DNA of 48,181 nt from a virus. Every line of letters begins with the position of its first letter. Position 1 is the first letter of the stretch. Location of the stretch: the IMG/VR virus record IMGVR_UViG_3300020580_000003, positions 1-48,181 of that record, one strand, 5' to 3'. This document shows positions 356-47,857 of the stretch, in pieces. Both the position numbers and the translations under genes were made by a program. The notes beneath the pieces were generated by a model, which saw only the letters and a program-made list of their open reading frames with translations, did not search any database and was not told where the DNA came from.

Positions 356-667
356 TTAGACCCTACGGCCGCTATTCACTTGCTCCGCCAGCCAATCGCT
401 CAGATTAACCTGCGGCTTAGCTTCCTCCTTGGCCTTGGGCTTATCAATCAACGCAATCTTCAATTCCCTCGCCTTAGTCTCAAAGTCTAGCTTATAGCTA
501 TGCACTGCCCGCTTCTCCCTAACCTTGGGATCAATCGCGGCCAATATCTCAACCACCTCCGCATTGATGTCATTCTTTACCTCATCCATAAGCGTTAGCA
601 ATTCAACCAGCTTCGGGCTAAACGCTTCCTTGGGGAAATTGCGGAACTGCACCGGAGTCTTAGCCAT
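356..667 (-). CDS. Hypothetical protein with RRV C-terminus
   Basis: A 103-residue charged protein with a helical N-terminal half and a Lys/Glu-rich stretch (about 75-88). The family is not recognised. ATG 667 is preferred over GTG 670 because AGGAGA lies 6 bases upstream of the ATG. It is the last gene of its transcript, directly before the terminator at 302-331. It ends in SGRRV, one of eleven proteins here with this type of C-terminus. No gene follows, so these codons (CGT AGG GTC) do not serve as a ribosome binding site. Confidence 0.75.
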   Translation of the reverse strand: MAKTPVQFRNFPKEAFSPKLVELLTLMDEVKNDINAEVVEILAAIDPKVREKRAVHSYKLDFETKARELKIALIDKPKAKEEAKPQVNLSDWLAEQVNSGRRV

Positions 668-726
668 CACCTATCTCCTTGCCCCTATAGGGCTCTATGT
701 CATGGCACTATGCCGTTGACCCTTCC

Positions 727-763
727 ATCCTGTCACATGCTGCACCGCACAATCAAATCACAA
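727..763 (-). promoter_or_regulatory. Candidate minus-strand promoter with duplicated element
   Basis: On the minus strand, -35 TTGATT (756-751) lies 18 bases from CAGGAT (732-727), a weak -10. The block 736-763 is nearly identical to 46973-47000 (17 consecutive identical bases plus matching flanks), which also has TTGATT upstream of a -10-like TATCCT. It would transcribe the gene at 356-667. Confidence 0.45.
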
Positions 764-908
764 TCGCGTGAATGCACCTGCATCAATGTGTTGCCAGACC
801 GCCATCGAGCCGGGGGTGGGGGCCAAAAAGCGCGCGCTCGCCGTGGGCCATACCTCTTCTCAGCAAATAATGTGGATTTGGGAATCACCCGGGTGTTTGA
901 AATAACGC

Positions 909-937
909 TTGACATTTTGAGTTAGGTGTGTCAGAGT
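909..937 (+). promoter_or_regulatory. Sigma70-type late promoter candidate
   Basis: TTGACA (909-914), a 17-base spacer ending in GTGTGT, then CAGAGT (932-937). The -35 is perfect and the -10 matches 3 of 6. The spacer end and hexamer closely resemble the two minus-strand promoters at 44275 and 47893, which read TGT-TAGACT. It lies just before the ribosome binding site of the first plus-strand gene (GGAG 951-954, GTG 962) and is the only clear promoter seen for the 30-kb late operon. Confidence 0.65.
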
Positions 938-961
938 GGTGTAACAAGCTGGAGATTTTGC

Positions 962-1351
962 GTGGAAGTTGGGTTCCATAGCCTTGGCGTGGCGTTGCGG
1001 AGCGCAGTGTATATGCTTGTCTATAAGGGCAAGGTGATGTACGTCGGGCAATCGACGCAGCCATTGGTGCGGGTCTATTCCCATATCCGATCGAAGAAGA
1101 TGAAGCAAACCACCTTCGGTCCGCGGATGCTGAGGACAATTCCCTTCGACGATATATGGCTAAGGCCATGCGCCGTCAGCGAATTGAATGAAGTTGAAAA
1201 GGGGTTGATATTAAAATATCGACCCCAATTTAATACCAAACACAACGATGGGCCGCAGGTCAGAATCGATCTGAAAGAACTGGTGCGCACCTTAGCTCCA
1301 ACCCGAGGCAAGTTCCACCCAACCATAGGACACATCGAACGGAGAATCTAG
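962..1351 (+). CDS. GIY-YIG family endonuclease
   Basis: A 129-residue protein with a GIY-YIG nuclease core: the AVYML and MYVGQS strands (about 15-31) stand for GIY and YIG, followed by an Arg at 37, His at 41, and the helix with ELNEVEKGLI (74-83) holding the likely catalytic Glu, then RPQFN (87-91). Small single-domain GIY-YIG enzymes cut DNA and in phages act in homing, repair or genome processing. The GTG start at 962 is chosen because GGAG lies 7 bases upstream; an upstream in-frame GTG at 926 would overlap the promoter. The gene ends in ERRI, and its last codons contain the ribosome binding site of the next gene (TAGTG stop/start overlap). Its place before the terminase genes suggests a role near packaging, but this is inference. 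Confidence 0.8.
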   Translation: MEVGFHSLGVALRSAVYMLVYKGKVMYVGQSTQPLVRVYSHIRSKKMKQTTFGPRMLRTIPFDDIWLRPCAVSELNEVEKGLILKYRPQFNTKHNDGPQVRIDLKELVRTLAPTRGKFHPTIGHIERRI

Positions 1352-1938
1352 TGCTTACCCGCGGTCGACTACCCAAGGTCAAACTCACCATCGGTGCAAT
1401 CCGGCCCTTGACGCCGGACGACCTTGCGTGCCTGCGGGTCAAGCGCACCACCCCTACCGTTCAGCGGTTTCGCGATCCGCACCATCGTCTAGCCTACCTC
1501 CTGGCCATGGGCATCCGGCCCAAGGACGCTGCGGAGCAAACCGGCTATTCCATCGCGCGGGTGTACATCCTCCACTCCGATCCATCCTTCATGGACCTAA
1601 TCGCGCGCTATCGTCCAGAGGTCGCCGAAGAACGCCGTGAAGCGGTCCTTGACCAAGATCGCGAAGCCTTAGCCCTGCGCGCCAAGGCCCTTCGTCACAT
1701 GCATGAGCACTTCGACAAAGCTGACGAAGAGGGTGAACTGGTTCCCTTGGACAAAGCCCAACGGGTCTACGCTGACCTTGCGGACCGCACCGGGTTCACC
1801 AAAAAGTCCACCACGGTCAACATCAACGTCGACTTCGCCAAGAACCTCGAGCGTGCTCGGCAAGTCCGTGACGTCAACCGTCGAGTGATTGATCATGAAC
1901 CCAAACCAACGGAGCGGGGCCTTGTCCGACGCATCTAA
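1351..1938 (+). CDS. terS: Putative small terminase subunit
   Basis: A 195-residue protein with a helix-turn-helix-like segment (about 47-75, MGIRPKDAAEQTGYSIARVY) followed by a helical charged region and a C-terminal part (ADRTGFTKKSTTVNINVDF, about 148-166) of the kind seen in phage small terminase proteins. It would recognise the packaging site and recruit the large subunit encoded just downstream. GTG start overlaps the stop of the nuclease gene; GGAGA precedes it. The protein ends in LVRRI, here encoded by CGA CGC ATC, which is not a ribosome binding site. Assignment rests on position and the HTH and could be wrong. Confidence 0.6.
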   Translation: MLTRGRLPKVKLTIGAIRPLTPDDLACLRVKRTTPTVQRFRDPHHRLAYLLAMGIRPKDAAEQTGYSIARVYILHSDPSFMDLIARYRPEVAEERREAVLDQDREALALRAKALRHMHEHFDKADEEGELVPLDKAQRVYADLADRTGFTKKSTTVNINVDFAKNLERARQVRDVNRRVIDHEPKPTERGLVRRI

Positions 1939-1974
1939 GCCATCGGGTTGTCTGCGCCCCGAAGGCCTAGGGAA

Positions 1975-2016
1975 GGCCAGTGTGCTGCTCAGGTCGCTCC
2001 TTGAGCGCCACTGGCC
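1975..2016 (+). other. Intergenic stem-loop after terS
   Basis: GGCCAGTG (1975-1982) pairs with CACTGGCC (2009-2016); inside, GCTCAGG (1987-1993) pairs with CCTTGAGC (1999-2006) with one bulged base. No U-tract follows, so it is not a standard terminator. It fills the only larger gap (1939-2058) in this part of the operon. An RNA processing or packaging-recognition element is possible. Confidence 0.6.
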
Positions 2017-2058
2017 AACTCCTAATGGAACATCCGAACTAAACGGAGTAAAGGCAGA

Positions 2059-2283
2059 GTGCGCGAGAAACAGTTTCTGAGCGGATTCGGTCCACTAGCT
2101 GGCTTTGGAATCGACGTTCATGACCTACAGGCAGATCACACAAGAGAGCGGATTAAGGAATATTTCGTTACCCATCCAGGCGCATCCAGCAAAGATGCTT
2201 GCAGAGACTTGGGATTATCAAGACGAACACTAACAACCTATCTCCCGCAGATCAAACGGGAATGGCGCATAAAAGAGAAATGA
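2059..2283 (+). CDS. Small HTH DNA-binding protein
   Basis: 74 residues. The segment ASSKDACRDLGLSRRTLTTY (about 42-61) is a convincing helix-turn-helix, followed by a basic tail (KREWRIKEK). It starts with GTG (GGAG about 10 bases upstream) and ends just before the large terminase gene. It may be a second DNA-recognition factor of the terminase, or a regulator of the late operon. Confidence 0.7.
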   Translation: MREKQFLSGFGPLAGFGIDVHDLQADHTRERIKEYFVTHPGASSKDACRDLGLSRRTLTTYLPQIKREWRIKEK

Positions 2284-2290
2284 GCGATTG

Positions 2291-12127: not shown

Positions 12128-12658
12128 ATGGCCCGTTGGCGCCTTTCCACCTCCCACTACCTCTCGGTTGAAAACAACGAATGGGAATACAACGAAACCG
12201 ATCGCTCAAGCGGGAAGCAAATCCGCACTCGGCTCAAAGTTCCCCTCCAACTCGACATCGACGATCCCAACTGCTGGAACGTAACCTTCCGCAACCCCAG
12301 AGGCGAAATCATTGCAGGAGAGGTAATCGTCGCCCATCGAACCGGTGCGGAACGCGCAGACGATATCATCTTCGTTGGCGATCCAACTCCGGATATGATT
12401 CCCCTCGACGACGAAGCCAAGACCATTTCCAAGAGCTTCGAAAAGCGCTGGGGCGCCGCACCCAATGAAGACATCTCCTACGGTCAGAAGATGATCGAAG
12501 CCAGTCAGGCTGAGATGGCTCGGCTCAAGGCCGAATCCAACGTCGTGAAGATCGAAGGAATGGCTGAGATCATGTCAGCCATGACCGCTATGTTACAACA
12601 GAACCAACAGATGATGGCTAATTTAATTCAAGCTCAGAAGTCCGATCGGAGAGTGTGA
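12128..12658 (+). CDS. Hypothetical protein with RRV C-terminus
   Basis: 176 residues: a beta-rich N-terminal half (MARWRLSTSHYLSVENNEWE) and a C-terminal helix rich in Met/Gln (about 120-170), possibly a coiled-coil oligomerisation segment. It ends in SDRRV; the codons CGG AGA GTG TGA also provide the GGAGAG ribosome binding site of the next gene (TGATG). Structural role likely from position. Confidence 0.7.
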   Translation: MARWRLSTSHYLSVENNEWEYNETDRSSGKQIRTRLKVPLQLDIDDPNCWNVTFRNPRGEIIAGEVIVAHRTGAERADDIIFVGDPTPDMIPLDDEAKTISKSFEKRWGAAPNEDISYGQKMIEASQAEMARLKAESNVVKIEGMAEIMSAMTAMLQQNQQMMANLIQAQKSDRRV

Positions 12659-15417: not shown

Positions 15418-15672
15418 ATGATGCCTGGACTTGATAATCTAAGTGAGATCGCAGCCCTTCTTCATATCGAAGAAAAGACACGCGATCAGCCGAAGTTGAA
15501 AGATATTCACGACGCTGCGATGCGTGCATTGGATGGGCATAACGCCAATCACGCACCGCAGTTGCCTGAGCCTGCGTTGCCGGTTACTGCGCCTCCAACG
15601 GCGCTTACGGCAGTGGAGCCTGAAGCCGAATCCGAAGCCGAAACCAACGGTGAAACCTTGAGGAGAATCTAA
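15418..15672 (+). CDS. Small hypothetical protein with RRI C-terminus
   Basis: 84 residues: a helical N-terminus (about 5-40) and a Pro/Ala/Glu-rich tail. AAGGAAA precedes ATG 15418. The end TLRRI is encoded by AGG AGA ATC TAA, which also forms the ribosome binding site of the following gene (TAATG). Confidence 0.7.
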   Translation: MMPGLDNLSEIAALLHIEEKTRDQPKLKDIHDAAMRALDGHNANHAPQLPEPALPVTAPPTALTAVEPEAESEAETNGETLRRI

Positions 15673-31186: not shown

Positions 31187-32418
31187 TCCTTCGTCACCTT
31201 ATAAACCTGCTGCCCTGTGCGTTTATCCACTCCAATCGCCTGAATCTTCCCACTTCCCTCAAGTATCTCCACAATGCGGAGGATTGAGTGGAGTGGGATT
31301 TTGTCTTTGGCGAAGTTGATTATCTTGTGCTTGGCTACGCCTTGCCCTCGGTCAATGGTTTGCATGAAGTACATTATTTCCTCAATCGCCTGACCATCAG
31401 CGTTTCCACTTCCCGATTTGAATATCTCTGGCATTGCGCTCTCTGCCTCCAGTAACCATCCCATTGCGGTGTTGAAGTCGGCCTTGGTTAACACCAGTCC
31501 ATTCCCTCGGTCTATCGACGCAATCATCGACAGTTTATATAAATGGGCTCGCCTTCGTGTAACGTAATGGAGGAGTTTTGGATGAGAAGGTACGGGTATC
31601 TCACCCGCTCCGCGCCAGTTGTTAACGGCATCTCGGTAATCTTCAGTGACCTCGAATTCTCCCGTGAGACTATTGATAATTCGAAGATCGTGTTCGAGAT
31701 CAGTGGAATGGTTGTGTGTTTTGGGCGCGAAGTCATCTCCGGTTATCCTTTCATCAGAGAAGATCATCAGTAGGCGAGAGGTGAAGCCTTGTTCCCACGC
31801 GCCTTCTGGCATGAACTTCATTAGGTTGGAGGGGGTAGAACCACAGAGCATATTTAGTTGCGGAGATTTGATCTTGATGTTATCTCCCTTGAACATTCGT
31901 CGAGCTTGGGAGTATGGATCAGGATCATAGAAGGCCGATAGGCCCGCAATCATTTCATTCCCGTACTCATGTACGAATGCTCCCAATTCATCAGCAGCGA
32001 TATACATACTATTATATTCGAGAGGAGTATCAGGTAAACGAACCAGAAATCGTTTGGCCTGTACCAAAGAGTCAACAAGAGCGGAGAAAGTAAGGCTAAC
32101 GGGAGCAAGATGAAAGTCAGGGAGATCAATAACATAGCTTCGTGCCTCACGGATTGTTCTGGTTTTACCCACGCCTGGGTGGCCGAGGATTAGGACGTAG
32201 ATATTAGGGAATAGTGGGCGACTTGTCTTTACCCATACCTTTTGCTCCAGAACTGCCGCGATGGTACTAATCGCACTCCAACGCCTGAAGATTAATGGGC
32301 TATCTAGATTTTCGGTTTGCTCGATAAATGACTCTATCCAAGAGGCCAACTTCCGCTTGTCTTTGGCGGTCGTCGTGCCCTTTGAAATTGATGAGTCCAT
32401 TAGGATTTTTCCGTGCAT
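31180..32418 (-). CDS. DUF3987-like AAA ATPase / replicative helicase candidate
   Basis: 412 residues. Walker A GHPGVGKT (about 79-86), Walker B YIAADELG (139-146), and the segment with CGSTPSNLMKFMPEGAWEQG followed by FTSRLLMIF fit the DUF3987-type ATPases of phages, which are linked to replication and often act as helicases. No primase domain is present. Its first 119 bases overlap the polymerase gene, and the start is uncertain between several Met codons (GGGGGA supports ATG 32418). It closes the replication operon. Confidence 0.8.
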   Translation of the reverse strand: MHGKILMDSSISKGTTTAKDKRKLASWIESFIEQTENLDSPLIFRRWSAISTIAAVLEQKVWVKTSRPLFPNIYVLILGHPGVGKTRTIREARSYVIDLPDFHLAPVSLTFSALVDSLVQAKRFLVRLPDTPLEYNSMYIAADELGAFVHEYGNEMIAGLSAFYDPDPYSQARRMFKGDNIKIKSPQLNMLCGSTPSNLMKFMPEGAWEQGFTSRLLMIFSDERITGDDFAPKTHNHSTDLEHDLRIINSLTGEFEVTEDYRDAVNNWRGAGEIPVPSHPKLLHYVTRRRAHLYKLSMIASIDRGNGLVLTKADFNTAMGWLLEAESAMPEIFKSGSGNADGQAIEEIMYFMQTIDRGQGVAKHKIINFAKDKIPLHSILRIVEILEGSGKIQAIGVDKRTGQQVYKVTKDQ

Positions 32419-33820
32419 CATATTTCCCCCGGTTCCATCCTACTTGGCAATCATATGGAATTGACAGTGTGCGGCCATTCTTGAGCGGCACGTCAACTGC
32501 CAACATTTGGCGAAGCTGTGGAACAATCTGATCCTCCAATTCTTCATGATACATCCAAGTTGTGGCGTCATGGTCTTGCATCATGAGGATGGCAGGACGC
32601 TTGCGCCAGGTGTTTAGCATTCCGATGTTGACGATGTCCGCAAGAGAACCCTGCGGATCGAATGCAATAGCTTCGCGGATTACATCCGGGTCGTTGCGCC
32701 GACCAAGGAACCAACGCTTACGGCCCATTAAGTTAATCAGGTATCCCTTAGTCCATACCTGGCCCTTGACCCATTCCTGCCATCGCTCATGCGAGGGGAA
32801 AGCGTCAAAGTATTTAGGCTGGAACTGCCTGACGATGTTAATCGGTAGCTTAGTCTGTTGAGATAGTGTCTCAGCCTTTCCTCCATAATTCGACCCGTGT
32901 CCCAGCTTTTTGCACATATCTCTATGCGATAGGTGACGATAGAATTTCGTCTCCGCAATATCCTTATCCTTGCTGAGGTCGTTAGTCCATTTAAGTCCCG
33001 GCCAACAAATTCGTGCAACTGCTGTATGCACGTCGCCGGAATCGACAGCGTCGAGGTATATAGGATCATTGAAGAGGTTCCATTCTATCCCTCCGACGAC
33101 GTAGCTTTCGCCGGATTTGGCGTCGAATTTGGCGAACTTGTAACCGGGGTCAGCAATAAATATAGACCTAAGGGACTCTTTAATATTCTGTACGTTCCCT
33201 CCAGTTCCGTATTCGGAATACGAAGAACTGAACCTTCCGGTGTTAGTTCCGGCGATATTATAACTGGTCCGCATTCGTCCATCAGTATCGATATCTGTCT
33301 TGAGGACCCCAATGTCCTTAGCGAGTTCTCGCATTGTAGACATATGGGCGATGATTTGTTTAGTGATGGTGTACGCCTCCATCTTCTCCAGCGCAGCGCG
33401 ATCGACTGTGGGTCTGCCATAGCGTTTGATCTCCGGGATTTGAAGGTGGGTGTAGAACAATAGTTTAAGATCATCATTCGATCGCCAGTTGAACCACTTC
33501 ATCCCCACTCCGTCGAGGACGATAAGCTCAAGCTGACGTTCGAGTTGGGCGAGTGCGTCGTAGTATTCCTCAAGAACCTCGGTGCGGCGACCTTGATCAA
33601 CGAGAACGCCGCGAGCATTCATTTCGAGGACAGGACCTTGGAGTGCCTTGCTTAGGGCATACGTCTGCGCTTCGTTGGTTGTTAATTCGTTGTGACCGAA
33701 TTTTATTGCTTCGTAGACTTCACGAGTGATACAACAATCCAGGCCGTTATACGCCATCTCCCTCTCGAAGTCGGAGAGGGAGGTTGGGTCCATGGATTGG
33801 GTGCTTATGATTCTAGCCAT
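32300..33820 (-). CDS. DNA polymerase I-type polymerase subunit (C-terminal cistron)
   Basis: 506 residues. It begins with the last part of the proofreading domain: YNGLD (24-28) is the Exo III YxxxD motif. The polymerase domain follows: TNTGRFSSS (192-200), motif A with D233 and E238, motif B R300/K304/H308/Y312-G313, motif C H417-D418. The position equal to E. coli Phe762 is His and that of Glu883 is Ala. The start ATG shares one base with the stop of the upstream cistron (TAATG), so the two parts should be made in step and probably associate. Confidence 0.92.
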   Translation of the reverse strand: MARIISTQSMDPTSLSDFEREMAYNGLDCCITREVYEAIKFGHNELTTNEAQTYALSKALQGPVLEMNARGVLVDQGRRTEVLEEYYDALAQLERQLELIVLDGVGMKWFNWRSNDDLKLLFYTHLQIPEIKRYGRPTVDRAALEKMEAYTITKQIIAHMSTMRELAKDIGVLKTDIDTDGRMRTSYNIAGTNTGRFSSSYSEYGTGGNVQNIKESLRSIFIADPGYKFAKFDAKSGESYVVGGIEWNLFNDPIYLDAVDSGDVHTAVARICWPGLKWTNDLSKDKDIAETKFYRHLSHRDMCKKLGHGSNYGGKAETLSQQTKLPINIVRQFQPKYFDAFPSHERWQEWVKGQVWTKGYLINLMGRKRWFLGRRNDPDVIREAIAFDPQGSLADIVNIGMLNTWRKRPAILMMQDHDATTWMYHEELEDQIVPQLRQMLAVDVPLKNGRTLSIPYDCQVGWNRGKYDARKNPNGLINFKGHDDRQRQAEVGLLDRVIYRANRKSR

Positions 33821-34923
33821 TACTCATCTCGTTTCACCGTCTCGTGTTTCTTCCGCATATGTTTCCAACTTCCATGATCGGTATAGATCGACCCAAGATA
33901 TCCCAATCCTTTGAGGCTTTCCGGCTGCCTCGCATGATGCGCCAGCATCGTATCTTCCTTTGCTCCCTTCACTAAGATGCCGTAGGATCGCATTAGGAAT
34001 CCGATGTCATAAACCCCATTCTGAAACAACTTACCTATCGCTCCGTCCTCAAGAACTCCGCGCACAATTTCCCAACACTGCCGCTCATGCTCCGCAGTTG
34101 GCCAGTAATTTCCTCCCGCTGCGCGGCTGTCATCGAACGGTATAACGATCGCAAGATCGGCTCGGGGAGCGAAGCCAATGCAAGTAACTCTTGTTCCTGC
34201 CGTCTCAATGTCGACAGATAACAGATCGCAAGTCCGCACATAATCGTCGATAAATCTTCCGATGTCTTCGAGCGTGGGCTCGATCCAGATTTCGCAGTTC
34301 GGTCGACGGATTTCGCCATAGGCCATCTCCCGTTTGGCTTTCATTAAGTCCATGATTACTGTGGGTCGGAGTTCCCATTGTCTGAGGACCGCTGCGGGAT
34401 GGTAGGTGGGGAGGATTTTGAAGTCTGCAACTGTGTGCGTAGAGTAGAGAGTTGTGCCTCGCAGCTTACTGACGCCAGTTTTACCACCCAAAGCCCAAAG
34501 AGGAGTATTGCCCAGGCACACAATGAGATTAGGATTGTGAACCAGAATTTCTTCACTAAGTCTTTCCAACTCGGGCTCATACCGGGCATCAAGGTATCCG
34601 GATTTGATAAGAGTTGGGTAACCAGGGATTCCGTTAGCTTTTGGTCCGCAGACGGTTTCGAGTTTGTTCGCGTGGGGGTGGAAGTTGAGGACGTTGGTTC
34701 GGTGGATTTCGTCACTGTGTAACCTCCAGATTGAGTCGAGGAGATGCGGATCGCGGGTGTCCCAATACTTCCGCAGAAAGCGTTTATCCTCCCCCGTTAA
34801 GGTGAGGATTTTGGCTTCATCGAGTTGATTGAGGAGTTCTATTCCCGAGGGGCCAACGAAGGGAGCGCCTATGCGCTCCTCTTCTGAGCCCATGGCTTCG
34901 CCAAGGAGGACTAGGGGGGTCAT
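33820..34923 (-). CDS. UDG-like domain fused to 3'-5' exonuclease (N-terminal polymerase cistron)
   Basis: 367 residues from ATG 34923 (ATGA overlap with the DUF3310 gene). Residues about 5-200 resemble family 4-type uracil-DNA glycosylases: GEAMGSEEERIGAPFVGPSG (8-27), TNVLNFHP (76-83), and YHPAAVLR with His 175. Residues about 236-330 are a DEDDy exonuclease: Exo I SVDIETAG (D238, E240), Exo II FQNGVYDIGFL (D306). The Exo III motif is missing here and lies in the next cistron. The glycosylase-like part may detect uracil or only guide the polymerase. Confidence 0.87.
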   Translation of the reverse strand: MTPLVLLGEAMGSEEERIGAPFVGPSGIELLNQLDEAKILTLTGEDKRFLRKYWDTRDPHLLDSIWRLHSDEIHRTNVLNFHPHANKLETVCGPKANGIPGYPTLIKSGYLDARYEPELERLSEEILVHNPNLIVCLGNTPLWALGGKTGVSKLRGTTLYSTHTVADFKILPTYHPAAVLRQWELRPTVIMDLMKAKREMAYGEIRRPNCEIWIEPTLEDIGRFIDDYVRTCDLLSVDIETAGTRVTCIGFAPRADLAIVIPFDDSRAAGGNYWPTAEHERQCWEIVRGVLEDGAIGKLFQNGVYDIGFLMRSYGILVKGAKEDTMLAHHARQPESLKGLGYLGSIYTDHGSWKHMRKKHETVKRDE

Positions 34924-35333
34924 CGCTTGCTCGTAAGCCGCATGATCTCGTCGTTGAGATACCACTGAGCCTTCTTTAGGTTCTCAATCGGATCGCCCTT
35001 GTCCTCGTAGCGCCAGATGTATTTAATTGCGTTGCCGATATTGAAGTTCATATGCCTAGTGACTTCAATGCACTCTATACCAGAGGGATGCTTTCTGTAG
35101 TGCGAAGGATTGATTGGGTCTTCCGCAAGTCCATTGACCGAAGTCGCTTCTGCAACAAGTCCCGAATCGTGCTGGGTCGGCGGCGCAGTGCTCTCGCTAT
35201 CTGCCTTATTGGCATTCCTTCGACGAAGGCCGAAAGGGCTAGGCCCTTTTCCAAAGGTGTCATGCACAACCGGCGTCGCGAGGGTTTCATCAAGATTCTC
35301 CATAAGAGAGCTAGCATCGAATGGTTTTTGCAT
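34920..35333 (-). CDS. DUF3310 family protein
   Basis: 137 residues. The C-terminal 65 residues (INPSHYRKHPSGIECIEVTR to KKAQWYLNDEI) are a clear DUF3310 domain, a short family near replication genes in many phages, of unknown function. The N-terminal 70 residues look disordered and are read in another frame from an HTH gene (35075-35290). ATG 35333 has GGAGA just upstream, 12 bases after a terminator-like structure. Coupled to the polymerase gene by ATGA. Confidence 0.88.
   Translation of the reverse strand: MQKPFDASSLMENLDETLATPVVHDTFGKGPSPFGLRRRNANKADSESTAPPTQHDSGLVAEATSVNGLAEDPINPSHYRKHPSGIECIEVTRHMNFNIGNAIKYIWRYEDKGDPIENLKKAQWYLNDEIMRLTSKR
35075..35290 (-). CDS. Out-of-frame HTH protein inside the DUF3310 gene
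   Basis: 71 residues. TPLEKGLALSAFVEGMPIRQ continued by IARALRRRPSTIRDLL (about 11-46) has the full pattern of an IS30/HTH_38-type helix-turn-helix. ATG 35290 has GGAG 7 bases upstream. It is read in a different frame from the DUF3310 gene on the same strand and overlaps mainly its non-conserved N-terminal part. It may be a real DNA-binding regulator with the DUF3310 extension overprinted on it, or the remnant of one. Confidence 0.55.
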   Translation of the reverse strand: MKPSRRRLCMTPLEKGLALSAFVEGMPIRQIARALRRRPSTIRDLLQKRLRSMDLRKTQSILRTTESIPLV

Positions 35334-35421: not shown

Positions 35422-35886
35422 TTATTCCTCAACTGGCGCGGTTTTGCCAATGTTGGCGTAGACGGTGGTTCCATCCTTCGATGCGGTGTGGACCACATTT
35501 GCCACGAACTGGCAATTGGGGGTTTCATCGATGCACTGACGAGTGGTCTTACCCTCGCCATCGATTCCGCAATGCTGAAGGAACTCCTGCAAGCGATAGA
35601 CGGAGTCGGGGGTGATGTAGAAGGTAAGTCTAGTGGCGTAGTCAGTGAGCGCACGTACAGTGCCATCGGACTTCGCACCCCATTCGTCAAGGGCCTCTTG
35701 GTCAACATCGTCGAATGCCTGGAGGCACTTGATATTGAACTCATAGAATGGCGTCTGCTTTTCCTTGGACTTATCGTATCGCGGCATGCCTTGGACTACC
35801 CAAAGGTAGGTGCCGACAGGAAGGGGCTTGGGCTTGTCGATTTGGGTTGCGGGTTTGTCGAGGATGTCAGAGATTTGATTTGCCAT
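35422..35886 (-). CDS. SSB-like replication protein (tentative)
   Basis: 154 residues from ATG 35886: MANQISDILDKPATQIDKP, then LPVGTYLWVVQG and PFYEFNIKCLQAFDDVD with an acidic C-terminal end (APVEE). Strand-rich N-terminal half and place next to the Sak4-like ATPase fit a single-strand DNA-binding or DUF-type recombination accessory protein, but no decisive motif is seen. An upstream in-frame extension overlaps the preceding gene and is not used. Confidence 0.6.
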   Translation of the reverse strand: MANQISDILDKPATQIDKPKPLPVGTYLWVVQGMPRYDKSKEKQTPFYEFNIKCLQAFDDVDQEALDEWGAKSDGTVRALTDYATRLTFYITPDSVYRLQEFLQHCGIDGEGKTTRQCIDETPNCQFVANVVHTASKDGTTVYANIGKTAPVEE

Positions 35887-35911: not shown

Positions 35912-36106
35912 TTAGAATTGGATGTCGTCAGTGGTAACATAAGCTGACCGGGCTGGTGTTTGGGTCGGGTGCGTTTCCTCTTCTGCTTTCGAGATTTCGC
36001 TTTGAAGTAGGGCGTAAACCCTGTCTCCGGCGTTGGGCATATCGAGGCGAGATAGTGCCTCAAGTGCGATGGATAGGTTTCGGATTCGGGATGTGACATT
36101 GCTCAT
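35912..36106 (-). CDS. Small helical hypothetical protein
   Basis: 64 residues starting MSNVTSRIRNLSIALEALSR; helical N-terminal half and polar tail. The start overlaps the stop of the Acb2-like gene (ATGA). No family recognised. Confidence 0.7.
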   Translation of the reverse strand: MSNVTSRIRNLSIALEALSRLDMPNAGDRVYALLQSEISKAEEETHPTQTPARSAYVTTDDIQF

Positions 36107-36345
36107 CGCCAAGTAACTGCCTTCACCGCCCACATCTGTGCGGTCTGCGCTTCGGTGATGGCAATGGAGCAAAGACGTACCATCTCAGGATTGTCTCCAC
36201 GCTTAATGTAGCCTTTGCGGAAATCATCCATGTGATCGATGATCTGCGCATATAGTCTTTTTAACGTGTCAACATCACCCATTCCTGATGGGTTGAAGCT
36301 AAGGCCAACTGCCTTTTCGCCAAAGGTCTGTACTTGATCCGTCAT
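36103..36345 (-). CDS. Acb2/Tad1-hairpin-like protein (anti-CBASS candidate)
   Basis: 80 residues: KAVGLSFNPSG (about 11-21), DTLKRLYAQIIDHMDDF (26-42) and AITEAQTAQMWAVKAVTW (62-79). This helical-hairpin pattern is what I associate with the Acb2/Tad1 hairpin family; Acb2 proteins sequester cyclic nucleotides and block CBASS defence. Similarity is judged by eye, so function is probable, not proven. It is coupled to the ATPase gene (TAATG) and the next small gene (ATGA), inside the replication operon, so it would be made early. Confidence 0.68.
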   Translation of the reverse strand: MTDQVQTFGEKAVGLSFNPSGMGDVDTLKRLYAQIIDHMDDFRKGYIKRGDNPEMVRLCSIAITEAQTAQMWAVKAVTWR

Positions 36346-37220
36346 TATATCTTCCTCGCTAAGGTTAAGGCCTTGGGTTTCACCACTGGTGTCTGCTCCA
36401 CTGGCTTCGTTGGGGAGGCCTTGAGGACCCCAAAGAATTCTGCCAAACCCGTGTCGATTGGATAACTCTTCGCCATCTCAAACGGCTTTGGGTTCTTAAG
36501 GTCAATCATCGCCGTGGCGACGGTGGTTATTTGTCGCTTTCCGTTTTTATTTTCGCACAACGCAACGGAGTTGAAATAGCGCGGGATAATAGGTCCCAAC
36601 GCTGACCCGACGCTGGTTGGATATCCTTTCTTCGATCCGTCGGGATTTTCGATGTAGCGAATATGACTGGTGATGATGACATTAGTTCGAAACGCCTCAC
36701 CGGTGACGAAGGCCAAGACACTCTCAATTGCATCTTGGGCATCTTTGTACACCGCTCGCGCATCGAATTTGCCATCTTTACCACGTGCGGCCAGAGGTTC
36801 TCTGAAAGCGAACGCTGCGTCGGATAGGAATGTAAGGGAATCGATGATAAGTATCGTATCTGACCCCCACTCGGACGGCACACCAAGGTCAGTTTCAACT
36901 CCTTCATCGATATATTTCCACCGATCAAGAAGTTTAACAGCATCAACAAACGCTTTGGGGGTGCCTGCGATAACAGGGCCTTCCGGCCCAGATTTATACT
37001 TGTCTCGTAGTGTGCGGAACTCGACGTTGTTGATCTTATCTGGGCAGTCTCTGAGGACGAACTGTTTGAGTACATCAAGGCCGTTGTCCATGTCTAGGAT
37101 GCGCAGCTTATACCCCGCTGCGACTAGGGAGGCTAAGGCGCCGGTTTTACCGGAACCGGAATCGCCTTCGATGAGGAGTTTGGTGAACTCATTGGATTGG
37201 TGATTGGCTAGGCTGGGCAA
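36345..37220 (-). CDS. Sak4-like RecA-fold ATPase
   Basis: 291 residues: Walker A GDSGSGKT (19-26), Walker B TILIIDSLTF (122-131), then a long RecA-core region with VIITSHIRYI. This is the AAA_24/Sak4 type used by phages for single-strand annealing recombination, usually with an SSB, which may be the gene downstream. The start is TTG at 37220 with a strong GGAGG 6 bases upstream. It ends in LARKI; AGG AAG ATA TAATG also acts as the ribosome binding site and overlap for the Acb2-like gene. Confidence 0.87.
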   Translation of the reverse strand: MPSLANHQSNEFTKLLIEGDSGSGKTGALASLVAAGYKLRILDMDNGLDVLKQFVLRDCPDKINNVEFRTLRDKYKSGPEGPVIAGTPKAFVDAVKLLDRWKYIDEGVETDLGVPSEWGSDTILIIDSLTFLSDAAFAFREPLAARGKDGKFDARAVYKDAQDAIESVLAFVTGEAFRTNVIITSHIRYIENPDGSKKGYPTSVGSALGPIIPRYFNSVALCENKNGKRQITTVATAMIDLKNPKPFEMAKSYPIDTGLAEFFGVLKASPTKPVEQTPVVKPKALTLARKI

Positions 37221-37416
37221 GAAGCACCTCCGTGTAAAGGGTTAATAGGTCACCATCGTGGAGATCAAGGCGGGTGGTGTCGTGTGTGATACGGATGGTA
37301 GTTGGTGAGCCGTACTGCGCGCCGATAAGAATAGTGAATCCCTTATCGGTTATGTCGGTGACTGGGGCTTTGAGAAGTGGGAGGACTAGTCTCATCTGGG
37401 TTTTAGTGGGTTCCAT
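37189..37416 (-). CDS. Small beta-rich hypothetical protein
   Basis: 75 residues (starts MEPTKTQMRLVLPLLKAPVT), with alternating hydrophobic strands. GGAGGAAG precedes ATG 37416. It overlaps the nuclease gene by 25 bases and the ATPase gene by 32 bases. No known family. Confidence 0.7.
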   Translation of the reverse strand: MEPTKTQMRLVLPLLKAPVTDITDKGFTILIGAQYGSPTTIRITHDTTRLDLHDGDLLTLYTEVLLAQPSQSPIQ

Positions 37417-38384
37417 CTTTCTTCCTCCGGAAGTTTAACAAAGTCTGCCTCTAGGAAACGTTCACGGACTGAGGAGTCTTTAGAACACACCCCCCTGAAC
37501 TTACACCCACCAAACTTATCACATGCGGTGTCGTTCTGCGGCCAGTAGTTGATGGTTGCATATTGCTCAGCCATGTGAAGGTGGATTCGTAGATCATGCA
37601 CCCATTCCTCAATCTGCGCATGGGTGCGGAATGTGAAGCCTCGTTGGTAGCTATTAGGTTTCTCGAGTAAAACCTGCGCTGCGTCGATAATCACCCCTTT
37701 AATCACGGTTCCTAAAACGACTTGGCCTGCGAGGGTGTAGAGGGACATTTGATTATTGGGTGAGAATTGGTCGAAGAAGTACGGACCAGGGGCGATGGAA
37801 GTGGTCTTCCGATCCATTACGAAGGTTTGTTCGTTGAAGGTGACGACTCGGTCGAGGTGGCCACAGAGGACGTATGGCTGATTAACATCTGCATATTCGC
37901 CATTGGTTAGTGTGTATACACTTGATTCTGGCCCCCAATCCAACTCAAACCTAAAACTCACCTCAGTTGCAGCTGATCCATTCTCTCTAACAACTGTTTG
38001 TGCCGTATCGTCTTTATACTTGTCAAGGTAGTCAAGGACGAGTGAGATGAGGGTGCGGGGGTTTTTGTAGTTCCCAGCGCGAGTAGTAGTATCAGGATTC
38101 CAAGTGCTAATCCGCTTAAGAAGCAGAAGAATAGTTTCGCGCACACTATCTTCATGCCCTTCACCTGAAATACGGAATCCATCGTATTCCTCCAATGCTT
38201 TGTGGTATTCGATTCCAAAGCGAAGGTGGATTGAGTCTTCCTTAGGGGACCAACCATCGAGCATGGTGTATTGGTAGAGGCGAGGACACGTCTTCAGATA
38301 TCCTAGGCTAGTTGAGTCCCATGCGTATTGGATGTTGGTGCCGGGGAGGTAGGGACTTAGGTGTTTGACTGGAATGGGTTTCAT
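37392..38384 (-). CDS. Cas4/RecB-like PD-(D/E)XK nuclease
   Basis: 330 residues. CPRLYQY (33-39), RFGIEYHKALEEYD (55-68), and the catalytic core GHLDRVV with D178, then VMDRKTTS (D191, K193). Cys33 and the C-terminal Cys group (in NDTACDKFGGCKFRGVC, about 288-304) could hold a 4Fe-4S cluster as in Cas4/AddB. Likely an exonuclease that makes single-stranded ends for the Sak4-like ATPase. ATGA overlap with the preceding gene. Confidence 0.87.
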   Translation of the reverse strand: MKPIPVKHLSPYLPGTNIQYAWDSTSLGYLKTCPRLYQYTMLDGWSPKEDSIHLRFGIEYHKALEEYDGFRISGEGHEDSVRETILLLLKRISTWNPDTTTRAGNYKNPRTLISLVLDYLDKYKDDTAQTVVRENGSAATEVSFRFELDWGPESSVYTLTNGEYADVNQPYVLCGHLDRVVTFNEQTFVMDRKTTSIAPGPYFFDQFSPNNQMSLYTLAGQVVLGTVIKGVIIDAAQVLLEKPNSYQRGFTFRTHAQIEEWVHDLRIHLHMAEQYATINYWPQNDTACDKFGGCKFRGVCSKDSSVRERFLEADFVKLPEEERWNPLKPR

Positions 38385-38623
38385 ATCCTCCTCACCAACT
38401 TTGGCTTAGCTGGAGTAAGCCCTAGGGCCTCAAGATCAATCTTCACCGCAGGTCCAACGTCCTTCTTTGGTCGTTTGCCACCAACCTCTTTAACTGCCCG
38501 TTGATTACGATGGTAGGCAATTATGGCATCTAGCCTCTTTCGTCCTAAGGTGCCTTCGGCGGTAGAGAGTTCCATTGGATCGATGGTCATTAGGTAGTCA
38601 ATGTCGTTGAGTTCGTCACTCAT
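38381..38623 (-). CDS. Small hypothetical protein with RRI C-terminus
   Basis: 80 residues from ATG 38623 (MSDELNDIDYLMTIDPMEL), basic C-terminal half ending KLVRRI. The last codons AGG AGG ATA TGA contain the ribosome binding site and, through ATGA, the start of the nuclease gene. Confidence 0.75.
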   Translation of the reverse strand: MSDELNDIDYLMTIDPMELSTAEGTLGRKRLDAIIAYHRNQRAVKEVGGKRPKKDVGPAVKIDLEALGLTPAKPKLVRRI

Positions 38624-41694: not shown

Positions 41695-42004
41695 TGCCAA
41701 TCCTCTTCTGCGCATTGTAGGTTTTGATTAGCTCAGGTCGGAGGATTTCGCTAATACGATCACTTTCAGCACGCTTGCGCACTGTCATGCCTTCGACTAG
41801 GTCTTTAATGTTAGGGCGCATTTGGTCGAAAGAAGTGCACTGGGAGATTTTATAGATTTGTTCGTCCATGTTGCGCAAGGTGCGCACTAAGTATTCCACT
41901 TGGTTACGAAGGGCTGCGCTGGCTTTGTAATTGGTCTCAGCGTTTTCTCGAAGTTGGGCTTCTAGTTCCGCTATGCGCCTATCTTTGGCTTTGTTAAACA
42001 TCAT
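41687..42004 (-). CDS. Coiled-coil hypothetical protein
   Basis: 105 residues, charged heptad-like sequence (AKDRRIAELEAQLRENAET; ALRNQVEYLVRTLRNMDEQI). ATGATG start in the ribosome binding site region of the preceding gene (CGGAGG). Likely a coiled-coil dimer of unknown role. Confidence 0.75.
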   Translation of the reverse strand: MMFNKAKDRRIAELEAQLRENAETNYKASAALRNQVEYLVRTLRNMDEQIYKISQCTSFDQMRPNIKDLVEGMTVRKRAESDRISEILRPELIKTYNAQKRIGND

Positions 42005-42408
42005 ATCCTCCGTTTCAGCGTCCCAACCATCCCCGCAGGTTTGGCTAGGCCGATTTCTGCTAGTAGGTTGCGTTTTGGTGCCTTGGGTTCTGCGCGGGTG
42101 GTGTAGTGATCGGGAAGGTCATCTGGCATATCGCCAGCAGACTGTTGAATAGATTTGCAGTGACAACCACCGTAGTCCTTGAACTCATGCTCAGTAAAGA
42201 TGTCATAAAACTCCATACTCCACCACGGATACGCTCGATGGCCACTGGTTGGTATGATCCACCAATACTTAAGATCATTACACTCGGAACAATAGGTGAA
42301 TTGATCTCGGTTTTGCCAAGTTGCGCACTCAGCACATTCTATCTGCGTCGCAACGTCAAACGCAGCCTCCCCTCGGACCTTATGTGCTATAAGCCAACGA
42401 TCAGTCAC
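42001..42408 (-). CDS. Zinc-binding hypothetical protein with RRI C-terminus
   Basis: 135 residues with CAEC (about 25-28), CSEC (40-43) and CHC, consistent with a zinc ribbon. The Pro/Lys-rich C-terminus ends TLKRRI, encoded by AAA CGG AGG ATA TGA, which also gives the next gene its ribosome binding site. Function unknown. Confidence 0.75.
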   Translation of the reverse strand: MTDRWLIAHKVRGEAAFDVATQIECAECATWQNRDQFTYCSECNDLKYWWIIPTSGHRAYPWWSMEFYDIFTEHEFKDYGGCHCKSIQQSAGDMPDDLPDHYTTRAEPKAPKRNLLAEIGLAKPAGMVGTLKRRI

Positions 42409-42951: not shown

Positions 42952-43368
42952 TTATATCCTCCGTTTAATGGGGCCAATTGAGGGATGCGGATTGGCTATG
43001 ATGGATGGGGGTGGATGCGCCAATTCTTCAGTAATTGCTACATCCAGGGCGGAGGATACCTCATTATGAAATGACATGAGGATTTGTTCCTCTTGTAGTC
43101 CAGTTAGCTGAGGTTCTTCGCAGAAGGTTTGTTCGCCTTCGGGAACCAACACTACCTTGTTTTCAAAATCCCAAAACCCACTAGTGTTCTCCAACCCCTC
43201 GGCTATTAGGGTTGGTAGCATTTGCCTATGACGGCAGGTTGGCTTTGAGCCTGCGGGGCATTCGCATTCGGTTTCGCTTAGGAGGTAGGATGATTCAACG
43301 TCTAGATCGTTGGTGAATTTGGTTATTCGCCATTGATCGCCGTCGGTCTTTAGGTTATAGAGAGTCAT
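42952..43368 (-). CDS. SWIM-type zinc-finger-like protein with RRI C-terminus
   Basis: 138 residues from ATG 43368 (ATGA overlap). ECECPAGSKPTCRHRQML (about 34-51) matches the CxC...CxH pattern of SWIM zinc fingers, which bind DNA or protein. A Pro-rich end finishes in PIKRRI (AAA CGG AGG ATA TAA), which also forms the next ribosome binding site. Confidence 0.78.
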   Translation of the reverse strand: MTLYNLKTDGDQWRITKFTNDLDVESSYLLSETECECPAGSKPTCRHRQMLPTLIAEGLENTSGFWDFENKVVLVPEGEQTFCEEPQLTGLQEEQILMSFHNEVSSALDVAITEELAHPPPSIIANPHPSIGPIKRRI

Positions 43369-43821: not shown

Positions 43822-44244
43822 TTATACCCTGCGAATTAACTTACCTATTACTTTAGGTGTCGGTCGCGGTGTTTGGCCATAAATTACCTTTAAGATACTT
43901 ATAGGCCTTCGTTCTTTTTCACTTGGTTGCCAAGAGGCTCTACCCTTGGCTATCATATCTACAACATTATCGGCTCTAGTTCCAATGAACAAATGATCTG
44001 GGTTCCAGCAGGGTGGATTATCGCATCTGTGTAGTAGGCACTTACCCTCTGGAACCTTTTTACCTTTCATAAGCCGCCAAGTTACGTGAGTTACTAGTTG
44101 ATCTTTATCTTGATATGGTACTCTTCCATAGCCGTACTGATTGCATTCACCAATGTATTCCCAACATCCCCTATCGTTAAAGATGGTGCGAGCGAATATG
44201 TACTCCATTATTGTTTGATTAGAGGTAATACGTCCACCACGCAT
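43822..44244 (-). CDS. HNH endonuclease
   Basis: 140 residues: GCWEYIGECNQYGYGRV (about 26-42), LLHRCDNPPCWNPDHLFIGT (about 70-89) with the HNH residues, and NVVDMIAKGR. This is the HNH_3 type common as free-standing phage homing or nicking enzymes. It is the first gene after promoter 44275-44303. It ends KLIRRV, encoded by CGC AGG GTA TAA, which is not the next gene's ribosome binding site (that is AGGAAA). Confidence 0.9.
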   Translation of the reverse strand: MRGGRITSNQTIMEYIFARTIFNDRGCWEYIGECNQYGYGRVPYQDKDQLVTHVTWRLMKGKKVPEGKCLLHRCDNPPCWNPDHLFIGTRADNVVDMIAKGRASWQPSEKERRPISILKVIYGQTPRPTPKVIGKLIRRV

Positions 44245-44255
44245 TTTTATGATCC

Positions 44256-44269: not shown

Positions 44270-44274
44270 TACCC

Positions 44275-44303: not shown

Positions 44304-44355
44304 TCCCTGATATTACTGATGCAACCACATAAGGGAGATTAAGAGACAAATGGAC

Positions 44356-44388
44356 AAAAAAATAGCCACGGGGTTTAAGCCGTGGCTA
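44356..44388 (-). terminator. Strong intrinsic terminator
   Basis: TAGCCACGG (44363-44371) pairs with CCGTGGCTA (44380-44388). On the minus strand it is followed by seven T (44362-44356). It ends the upper minus-strand unit just after the gene at 44400 and isolates it from the promoter at 44275. Confidence 0.95.
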
Positions 44389-44399
44389 AGTTGGGGGAG

Positions 44400-45326: not shown

Positions 45327-45601
45327 ATGTCTACGCCTTTATATTGTCATCCAGCATTCTATGACCAGCTAGTGGTGCTTAATGCGGGCTCTGACTGATG
45401 AAAGGGAACCCCAATGGGCCATTTGAGATATACTCATTGGTGCCATTGGGGCATTGGGTCTAACTCTACGGGTCTAAACGATCCTTGGCTGTGACATTGA
45501 GTAGATCATGAGTGCCGAGCCATTACTCGGAGCCTCTCAGTCTTGCGTACTCAACTACCGCACATGCTAGTGGGTTCCAATTACTCGTTTAGACTATGCG
45601 C
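45327..45601 (-). other. Structured intergenic region
   Basis: 275 bases without a gene. GTCTAAACGA (45472-45481) and TCGTTTAGAC (45585-45594) form perfect 10-bp outer arms. Inside are TTGAGTA/TACTCAA (7 bp) and CCGAG/CTCGG around a 6-base loop. Nearer the gene at 45326, CCCCAATGG (45409-45417) pairs with CCATTGGGG (45443-45451), followed on the minus strand by TTCCCTTT, a possible weak terminator. CATTGG recurs at 45435, 45444 and 45452. A structured RNA or leader is likely. Confidence 0.65.
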
Positions 45602-46270
45602 CTAACGGGCCGGGTGATGAACCGCACCCGACGGGGTATGCGTCGCAACCGGAACCGGCTTGGCCTTACGGCCCTTAACCAATCCCGCCTGCTTAGCGGA
45701 GATGGGCTTATTGGCTTTCGCCTCAGCCTTCTTCGCCTCTTCCTTCGCAATCTTGGCTGTATCTTCCTTCACACCAGCGATAAGAGCGCTGAGGTCGATA
45801 GAGGTGGGAACCTCCTGACGAGCCTTGATTGCCTGCTCCGCCATCTGCACAATCGACGGATCAAGGCCGATAAGCTCCTTAGCAGCGGAAGTGATCTCGG
45901 ACGCCTTGACGGCATAGAGCTTCTTCCCCGCGGCCTTAAGACCATCACGCACCCTCTCACGAGCGATACGGAGTGCCTCAGTGCCAACTGCTTTATCGAG
46001 CTTCGCGGCTTCGGACTTAGAGGCTTTGCCGGAGAACTTGATCTCTCCCGCAGCGATCTTAGCGACGTTTTGCGTCGCGATAATCATAGCCTCTTTACGC
46101 ACGGTAGCTTCATCGCCAAGGTCTTTGATGGTGACCTTGGACATTCCGCGATTTGCGAGGGTCTTGAGGCCTTGAAGAAGCGCCTCTGCGTAGACTGCCT
46201 CAGGGAGGGTGTCGGTGTCAATCTCTACCACACCCTTGCCCTTTACAATCGGGACTTGCATAATAGCCAT
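45602..46270 (-). CDS. Abundant-type helical hypothetical protein
   Basis: 222 residues: an N-terminal strand region (MAIMQVPIVKGKGVVEIDTD), then Ala/Lys-rich helices (about 75-190) and a basic Pro-rich end (KGRKAKPVPVATHTPSG). Family not recognised. It has its own promoter candidate (-10 TATAAT, 46365-46360). The high Lys/Ala content suggests nucleic-acid or nucleoid association; this is inference only. Confidence 0.8.
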   Translation of the reverse strand: MAIMQVPIVKGKGVVEIDTDTLPEAVYAEALLQGLKTLANRGMSKVTIKDLGDEATVRKEAMIIATQNVAKIAAGEIKFSGKASKSEAAKLDKAVGTEALRIARERVRDGLKAAGKKLYAVKASEITSAAKELIGLDPSIVQMAEQAIKARQEVPTSIDLSALIAGVKEDTAKIAKEEAKKAEAKANKPISAKQAGLVKGRKAKPVPVATHTPSGAVHHPAR

Positions 46271-46484
46271 TGGATTGAACTCGCTATTATCTCAGCTAGT
46301 GATGGACTAGCACCATTTGGGCCAAGTGGCCCTAGAGAATGCGCTACCAGCGAGCGACCATTATAAGGATTTGCAACGCAGTGACCCCTAGGTCTGTTGG
46401 TCTATGGCTTCTCTATACGCTTGGGGCGGGTAAGTCGTTAGACTGCCCGCCGTAAGAGCGTTTAGCTCATAGGTGATTTAGAGA
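46271..46484 (-). promoter_or_regulatory. Intergenic region with promoter and stem-loops
   Basis: On the minus strand a perfect TATAAT (46365-46360) with GGGTCA 16 bases upstream (3 of 6) forms a plausible promoter for the gene at 46270. Upstream of it is a stem-loop, GGCGGG ... CCCGCC with an inner AGTC-TAAC-GACT hairpin (about 46434-46460), and GAGC-TAAAC-GCTC. No tRNA could be fitted. GGTCTA/GGTCTG recurs several times here and in 45456-45480. Confidence 0.55.
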
Positions 46485-46706
46485 TTAGGGTCTGTAGATA
46501 TTCCATTCCTTTGCCACACTAGCCGCTGCATCGTAGGCATCTTTCAATGCCTTAGCAGCAAAATCAGTTGCCTCATCTTCACTATCAAACGTGATATTGG
46601 GCCAATACGTGCAGTCGGACCCAGTTCGCAACGCTGGATGAAATGGTCCTGAGCCGTAGCTTGATGCAACTGTCCCAAACTCAATCCGTACTGTGTCTGT
46701 GCTCAT
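46485..46706 (-). CDS. Small hypothetical protein
   Basis: 73 residues from ATG 46706 (GGGGAGA 7-8 bases upstream): MSTDTVRIEFGTVASSYGSG, a strand-rich start, then a helical end (EATDFAAKALKDAYDAA). Function unknown. Confidence 0.72.
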   Translation of the reverse strand: MSTDTVRIEFGTVASSYGSGPFHPALRTGSDCTYWPNITFDSEDEATDFAAKALKDAYDAAASVAKEWNIYRP

Positions 46707-46749
46707 AATGCAGTCTCCCCTTGCTTGTGTTGTAATGGCGCTGCGCGCC

Positions 46750-46923
46750 TCAGCCTTGCGGTATTCCACTTCCGTTGTTTGGATTATCCTTAATCCATTG
46801 GTCTACATCAGTATACTCTCTAGTATGTTCGCTCTTGTTATCATCTCTAGGAATAGCATAGCCAATGTGGTTATTCAATTGATATGCGAACTTAAACATC
46901 CTACCACATTTGCACTTGAACAT
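46750..46923 (-). CDS. 57-residue zinc-finger-like protein
   Basis: Read directly: starts MFKCKCGRMFKFAYQLNNHI and ends NNGSGIPQG. The pattern KCKCGRMFKFAYQLNNH resembles a C2H2-type finger with a closely spaced CxC, and another His lies at about 33. GGAGGG lies 5 bases before ATG 46923. A candidate promoter lies 40-70 bases upstream. Confidence 0.75.
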   Translation of the reverse strand: MFKCKCGRMFKFAYQLNNHIGYAIPRDDNKSEHTREYTDVDQWIKDNPNNGSGIPQG

Positions 46924-46963
46924 CTATTCCCTCCCTTACGATCTATAGGCTGCGCCTAGCAAT

Positions 46964-47000
46964 AGGATACCCCATGTTGCGGCGCACAATCAAATCACAT
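46964..47000 (-). promoter_or_regulatory. Candidate minus-strand promoter, second copy of the duplicated element
   Basis: TTGATT (46993-46988), 18-base spacer, TATCCT (46969-46964, 4 of 6). The block 46973-47000 matches 736-763, where TTGATT is also in the -35 position. It would serve the zinc-finger gene at 46923. Confidence 0.5.
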
Positions 47001-47196
47001 TTTCGTGATGTTGCGGCGCAGCATGATACGACGTTTAATCCACAACTGCTGCGCTCTGAGTTCACGACGCAGATTACGCCTAGCTCTGCGATAGGTTTCC
47101 GCTGGCCTAGCCTCTGCCTTTGGTCAGCGTTCCGCTGTGACTACGCGCGTTGGGCCACCTAGCCATATCCCGCAGGATATTATATCCACCTAACAT
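46995..47196 (-). pseudogene. Short gene apparently split by a frameshift
   Basis: ATG 47196 has an excellent GGGGAG and follows the previous stop as TGATG. It reads 29 codons (MLGGYNILRDMARWPNARSH to TAG 47107). In the +1 frame, with 15 bases of overlap, an open frame continues to TGA 46995 with a protein-like basic sequence (ETYRRARRNLRRELRAQQLW). One gene broken by an indel, a programmed shift, or a sequence error would all explain this. Confidence 0.45.
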
Positions 47197-47543
47197 CACT
47201 TATCTCCCCTTTGCCAATAGGTTGTTGGATTTCTCACATACTCACTCTCACTATACCTCCCAAGGTCACGAGGATACTGCTCAACCCCATAGCTTTCCCC
47301 TCCCCAAGCGTTCGTATAGCGCACGATCCGCACCGGCCATCCATCCTCAGCCGCATACTTCCCCGCGATAATCTGATCCGCTATTCCTTCGATACCGTTC
47401 CCATTTGTACTTCTCCTCTCGTTAACGCCGTGCCGTTGAACTCCTTCGCCACACCGCTGCGCTATCAGCCTTACGGTGCGGTACGATTCATTAAGCGGCG
47501 CGTTGCGCCTCAGACTCTCCGCTTCAACGGCCTTGAATTGATC
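47196..47543 (-). pseudogene. Open frame without a normal start codon
   Basis: 115 open codons end at TGA 47196. The latter half (IEGIADQIIAGKYAAEDGWP, then RIVRYTNAWGGESYGVEQYP) looks like a real protein. No ATG, GTG or TTG lies in the first half. An ATG with a strong AGAGGAG site (47404-47402) is in the wrong frame and meets TAG after 7 codons (47381). A frameshift between 47381 and 47404 would join the start to the open frame. The translation was done by hand. Confidence 0.45.
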
Positions 47544-47857
47544 TCAGCTATATATCGTCTGTGCTCAATTCGATCCACAATCTCTTGTGGTGTTGGCGGC
47601 GCAGCAATTGGTGATTCAACAACCTTTACCAATTGCTCAGGTAATCTAGCATGTTGAACCCAATACTCCGCAGCACGTTGAGGATTGGCTTTCAACAGCC
47701 GCGCATGCTTCTCCCTCTGATGCCACAACGGCAATATCTTCTCTGACAATGGTTGCATCTTTGGCGGTAACGCATTATCCACTGCCAATGCCTTGGCCAT
47801 CTCTTGAGAGTTAATCAACGCTATCAACTCCCTAACCTGCTTACTATCCTCACTCAT
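47510..47857 (-). CDS. Hypothetical protein with RRV C-terminus
   Basis: 115 residues, helical (MSEDSKQVRELIALINSQEM; LWHQREKHARLLKANPQRA). It is the first gene after promoter 47893-47921. It ends PLKRRV (CGG AGA GTC TGA). No normal start follows within coupling distance, so the sequence is not an obvious ribosome binding site. Family not recognised. Confidence 0.75.
   Translation of the reverse strand: MSEDSKQVRELIALINSQEMAKALAVDNALPPKMQPLSEKILPLWHQREKHARLLKANPQRAAEYWVQHARLPEQLVKVVESPIAAPPTPQEIVDRIEHRRYIAEINSRPLKRRV

Follow-up and report, generated by a model that had tools for sequence, protein, structure and literature searches.

A common basic C-terminal ending on unrelated proteins of a T7-like soil phage and its relatives, and its possible role as a docking tail

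Two unrelated proteins of phage T7, gp2.5 and gp4, have a similar short C-terminal tail and end in DGDF and DTDF respectively. That of gp4 binds basic patches on T7 DNA polymerase (PMC5997990), and that of gp2.5 has been implicated in contacts with the polymerase and the primase-helicase (PMC5686142). In HK620 the gene for a DUF669 single-stranded DNA-binding protein (SSB) adjoins sak4, and the last six residues of the SSB are needed for Sak4 binding (PMC5928155). Here we describe a basic ending, R-[RK]-[IV], on eleven proteins of the IMG/VR virus record IMGVR_UViG_3300020580_000003, the 48,181 bases of which were analysed whole (the window). The record is from a soil virus of bacteria of T7-like (podoviral) type, with genes for terminase, T7-type portal, capsid and tail. 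Searches of one literature collection for a C-terminal tripeptide common to phage proteins found nothing on point.

A terminal tripeptide and its lineage variants

The eleven C-termini had been listed in an earlier reading of the letters alone (the sequence-only reading), and all are present as written. For the 69 genes of the window the clade internal rate of 0.00047 per position predicts 0.03 such ends; the corresponding Poisson probability (about 1e-24) is descriptive only, the motif having been picked post hoc. The excess does not rest on this choice alone, because the relatives confirm it independently. The window terminase identified 80 relatives in IMG/VR, of which 25 were retrieved whole or in large part; with the window they give a clade set of 26 genomes or fragments, with genes called by one method and proteins of at least 50 residues retained (1,426). 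R[RK][IV] ends 82 of these 1,426 proteins versus 0.67 expected from the internal rate, and 77 of 1,386 (0.65 expected) once proteins with identical last 20 residues are removed. When the motif is shifted inward by 1–29 residues, at most four proteins match at any offset, hence it is strictly terminal. Start codons are uncertain for some carrier genes, which leaves the C-termini unaffected. Written out in full, the motif reads hydrophobic-x-R-[RK]-[I/V/F/L/M]-COOH, a basic tail with mostly I or V as the last residue, preceded by a Pro-rich linker (13.5% Pro versus 5.8%). A pair statistic calculated for single genomes gives z = 13.6 for the window, 0.1–0.5 for T7, Pseudomonas AF and Cobetia Carin1 and 2.6 for Escherichia TL-2011b, but it is weak, since the Bordetella phage BPP-1 and Caulobacter phage BL94 score only 1.4–1.6 singly despite a strong excess of another ending at clade level (see below). 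Duplication of one gene's end as the source is disfavoured by the nucleotide diversity of the tails (70 different 9-mers in 103 carriers) and by the spread of the carriers over 24 BLAST families. Four unrelated families have a longer common end (KIDLxALGLxP...RRI-like), and for this short module such a duplication may apply.

The ending varies in concert between lineages. In genome G002, RK is found in seven of nine tails of unrelated proteins versus 5 of 104 elsewhere (Fisher 7e-7); G013, G014, G004 and G011 prefer F and G012 prefers L or M, while in G016 three proteins have KRRxIP-like ends and others end in KRK or KRR-A. Families in the same genome tend to agree in the class of their last residue (concordance 0.78 versus 0.63 in within-family shuffles, p = 2e-4).

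Inspection of distant groups for shared ends revealed another common ending in BPP-1 and BL94. DLV is the commonest C-terminal tripeptide of the BPP-1 group (80 loci), where it ends 37 of 1,091 proteins versus 0.39 expected; GLV, SLV and DLI occur as variants, and [DGSEN]L[VI] ends are found in nine families. The recurrent carriers are the small terminase, the bbp38 exonuclease, a gp2.5-like SSB, a bbp15-type small late protein and another small protein, and four further families including a methylase carry the ending less often. Partly the same kinds of protein thus bear a different tail in this group. Caulobacter phage Kuura has no shared tail as judged by eye.

Peptide selection and Shine-Dalgarno overlap

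An in-frame AGGAGG reads Arg-Arg, and the geometry of overlap with the next gene makes the following codon ATA or ATC, so the ending could be a side effect of the Shine-Dalgarno (SD) sequence. Seven of the eleven window carriers are coupled to a downstream gene in this manner, as the nucleotides bear out. Coupled carriers favour AGG, CGG and AGA, and therefore these codons also serve as SD there; the Arg codons of uncoupled carriers are the common CGN ones, much as in the genomes at large. Four carriers had been called uncoupled; this holds for 356, 1351–1938 and 43822, whereas 47510 is ambiguous (see below).

We looked in the relatives for confinement of the motif to genes with a close downstream start, the result by which the sequence-only reading would have been refuted, and found uncoupled carriers instead. 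An R[RK]-hydrophobic end is present on 28 of the 755 genes whose last 21 bases contain none of GGAG, GAGG, AGGA and AAGG, versus 0.94 expected (24 of 716 after removal of duplicates). Genes with neither an ATG or GTG near the stop nor a next gene also carry R[RK][IV] (5 of 180, 0.08 expected). A further control comes from coupled genes whose tail contains an SD. The three reading phases of the SD are similarly frequent (82, 127 and 117), yet only the Arg-reading phase is rich in hydrophobic last residues (54%, versus 9 and 10% in the other two), and the other two phases have no common ending. Pairs of carrier orthologues show 790 synonymous versus 280 non-synonymous differences in the last three codons; for the codons just upstream of the tail the figures are 345 and 3,343. 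Since carriers were picked by the motif, the non-synonymous count of the tail is lowered, but the synonymous freedom is unaffected.

SD overlap is a partial cause of codon choice in the coupled genes. As the full explanation of the ending it is ruled out by the genes without SD, the phase control and the codon freedom, and we consider an origin as a mere side effect most improbable. The same results uphold the earlier hint that the peptide itself is selected and correct the view that SD suffices to explain the seven coupled ends, where the phase control shows peptide selection as well. From the sequence evidence, we regard selection on the ending at the peptide level as established with near certainty.

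The eleven carriers

At the left end of the window the 103-residue protein 356–667(−) ends in GRRV (RRV codons 359..367(−), CGT AGG GTC, uncoupled); inspection shows a hairpin and a T-run after the tail codons, and neither a start codon nor a next gene is near the stop. The GIY-YIG endonuclease (926/1013–1351(+), PF01541, E = 1.6e-5) ends in ERRI (1340..1348(+)) and is coupled to the gene at 1351; 13 of 17 family members have RRI. LVRRI ends the protein in the small-terminase position, 1351–1938(+), where the RRI codons CGA CGC ATC (1927..1935(+)) are uncoupled. Its nearest orthologue ends in LVRRV, encoded by CGA CGA GTC, and the family of 26 members contains RRI, RRV, RKV, RRF, RRL and RRM variants as well as losses.

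Two carriers are located among the late genes. The protein 12128–12658(+) ends in DRRV (12647..12655(+)) and is found in all 18 complete or near-complete genomes. R175 is invariant and R174 at least 90% conserved in its 23 sequences; the AlphaFold2 model has an ordered β domain and helices, with the last six residues disordered (predicted local distance difference test score < 50), and a fold search with this model gave no significant match. The small protein 15418/15421–15672(+) ends in LRRI (15661..15669(+)), with RRI or RKI in four of five family members; RRV or RRI also ends comparable small proteins of G007, G019, G023 and G033.

The Sak4-like recombinase (36345–37220(−); PF13479, E = 1.9e-10; phrog_124, E = 1.3e-11) ends in ARKI (RKI codons 36348..36356(−)). 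Its orthologue in G010 has the identical end from GCA CGT AAA ATC, uncoupled, and isolated phages yielded two matches with 25–27% identity. The 80-residue protein 38381–38623(−), for which no match was found among isolated phages (INPHARED), ends in LVRRI (38384..38392(−)). R78 and R79 are nearly invariant in 15 orthologues, whereas the linker differs in both length and sequence. The PDDEXK exonuclease 37392–38384(−), encoded directly after it, ends in WNPLKPR (WNPL[KR]xR in relatives).

Protein 42001–42408(−) ends in LKRRI (42004..42012(−)) as part of a longer module, NLLAEIGLAKP...LKRRI. Protein 42952–43368(−) ends in IKRRI (42955..42963(−)), and its 11 family members have RRI (7), RRF (2), RRL (1) and KIP (1). 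The HNH endonuclease (43822–44244(−), PF13392, E = 7.2e-8) ends in LIRRV (43825..43833(−), CGC AGG GTA, uncoupled); the tail is present in the window copy and missing from seven HNH relatives from other viral contigs. LKRRV (RRV codons 47513..47521(−)) ends the protein 47510–47857(−), which has no next gene. Its tail may be a relic of coupling, because the codons are SD-like (CGGAGAG) and the G010 homologue (20762) ends in KRRI and is coupled to the next gene. The palindrome GGCGC-N3-GCGCC occurs twice (46737–46749 and 47497–47509), each copy just past the stop codon of a minus-strand gene. A different conserved end, TAH, is found on protein 45602–46270(−), in 15 of 22 family members.

The DNA-metabolism genes of the window encode a DNA polymerase (two adjacent genes), the Sak4-like recombinase, the PDDEXK exonuclease and a helicase. 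The family A polymerase is split over the overlapping genes 32300–33820(−) and 33820–34965(−) in 18 of 18 complete relatives, and its halves match phrog_17 positions 551–798 and 807–1231; Kuura has a similar layout, with an annotated polymerase (25487–27169) followed by an overlapping unnamed gene. Positions 1–127 are repeated directly at 48055–48181, which may be genuine terminal redundancy or a k-mer overlap left by the assembly of a circular map. Portal and terminase matches among isolated phages (INPHARED), including BPP-1 and Caulobacter phages, are all below 60% identity. A scan of GTDB for the host yielded nothing beyond a 4.5 kb contig in an Actinomycetes metagenome-assembled genome and a distant locus in one from Syntrophobacteraceae.

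Possible functions of the tail and comparison with known systems

We lean towards reading the ending as a lineage-specific docking tail that plugs into one common hub of phage DNA metabolism. The tail would be a short linear peptide on a flexible, Pro-rich linker, and its clients (the small-terminase-position protein, the Sak4-like recombinase, the GIY-YIG and HNH endonucleases and small early and late proteins) would all plug into a single receptor, which would gather them at replicating, recombining and packaging DNA. We infer both that there is one receptor and that it is phage-encoded; the sharing of DLV by Bordetella and Caulobacter phages, whose hosts are far apart, favours a phage-encoded reader. 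The sequence-only reading suggested a shared docking, targeting or degradation tag; a tag is supported, and of the possible kinds (docking, degradation or packaging) docking is favoured.

TerL, portal, capsid, polymerase, helicase and SSB of the clade carry no such tail. Since a receptor is expected to occur throughout the genomes without bearing the ending itself, these proteins, together with the phage tail, qualify. The leading candidate, although a doubtful one, is the SSB (35422–35886(−), DUF669-type OB fold), the gene of which is one small gene away from that of Sak4. Six of its 18 family members match DUF669 (best E = 4.6e-5), Foldseek retrieves the ssDNA-binding protein PrgE (E = 4.6e-5, with a low template modelling score of 0.5–0.6), and the model has five long strands. 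In 18 of 18 complete genomes the SSB ends 3–8 residues after the last strand of the OB fold with no RR tail, in contrast to tailed SSBs from other phages, and has a net charge of −7 to −12; an acidic cluster at residues 59–64 is conserved. The HK620 SSB tail binds Sak4, whereas here the SSB is tail-less and Sak4 is basic-tailed; we therefore propose, with more reserve than the docking itself, that the usual direction (SSB tail into partner) might be turned to partner tail into SSB. The small gene between sak4 and the SSB gene (35912–36106(−)) encodes a 64-residue protein ending in TTDDIQF; four of its six family members end in IPF, like the tip of a bacterial SSB placed on a separate small protein.

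Several observations weigh against a docking tail for such a hub. Two clients (12128 and 15418) lie among the late genes, an odd place for a replisome client, and the small-terminase-position protein has lost the tail in five close relatives, where it ends in LESKNG. The SSB of the BPP-1 group itself bears the acidic tail and so cannot be a tail-less receptor there. Finally, the tests for concerted variants leave part of the shared ancestry among related genomes in the signal.

Alternatively, the ending could be a degron read by a host AAA+ protease, which would make the nucleases, recombinase and terminase short-lived. A precedent exists in MuA, which ends in RRKKAI, a basic-plus-Ile C-terminal degron for ClpX (PMC8138137), and the clients include potentially harmful nucleases. 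Compared with ClpX C-motif 2, the window tails have the basic residues and the C-terminal I or V but no KKAI, and MuA ends in AI with more basic residues. ClpX specificity should be widely conserved, whereas the tail differs by phage lineage (RRI, RRF, KRRxIP, DLV); as DLV is common to Caulobacter and Bordetella phages, the tail tracks the phage and not the host. We consider a degron unlikely. The tail might also be a virion or procapsid loading signal, by which its carriers would be taken up in or near the capsid and be delivered alongside the DNA. Encapsulins offer a parallel, since their HK97-fold shells bind the C-terminal peptides of cargo proteins, and the two late-region clients would fit such a signal. 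However, most clients are early-region proteins, and the small-terminase-position protein, a frequent carrier, is not expected in the virion, which makes loading quite improbable. A basic tail might also serve DNA binding or membrane contact in a general way, with no dedicated receptor. This would suit two Arg with hydrophobic residues on proteins many of which act on DNA, but a strictly C-terminal position, conservation of a hydrophobic residue at the very end and the concerted changes are needless for non-specific DNA binding, and the BPP-1-group tail is acidic; we think this explanation very unlikely.

Returning to the docking tail, we tentatively suggest that, in two or more groups only distantly related to each other, tailed phages may mark an entire set of unrelated DNA-handling proteins with a lineage-specific C-terminal tripeptide that co-evolves genome-wide, an address code for a single phage-encoded hub, which in the window clade could be the tail-less SSB. 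If so, the last three residues would assign phage proteins of unknown function to one functional hub, and foreign genes such as that for the HNH nuclease could be seen being enrolled by tail gain. The ending would offer a sequence-only handle on how phages organize replication, recombination and packaging and prompt a search for lineage-specific address tails; the statistic of terminal versus internal k-mer sharing is applicable to any phage clade.

The arrangement can be compared with several other systems. MuA, too, is a phage protein with a C-terminal Ile after basic residues, but its degron is on one protein with a KKAI end and has neither a client set nor lineage-specific variants. The bacterial SSB tip (DDDIPF) and the HK620 SSB tail (NDYPPF) that recruits Sak4 follow the same logic of a C-terminal peptide and a hub in DNA metabolism, and HK620 also has a DUF669-type SSB close to sak4; in the window clade, by contrast, the SSB stops right after the OB fold and it is the partners that bear tails, of opposite charge. 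As in the window, the BPP-1 group places one tripeptide on unrelated proteins of partly the same classes, although its DLV tail is acidic-hydrophobic and is also found on the gp2.5-like SSB. The tails of T7 gp2.5 and gp4 share with those of the window the hydrophobic last residue and the placement on unrelated proteins. They are, however, acidic with Phe and limited to two proteins, whereas the window tails are basic, are carried by as many as 11 proteins (nucleases, a recombinase and the small-terminase-position protein among them) and are missing from the SSB. By this comparison the window tail is not of the T7 type, though it would work like one.

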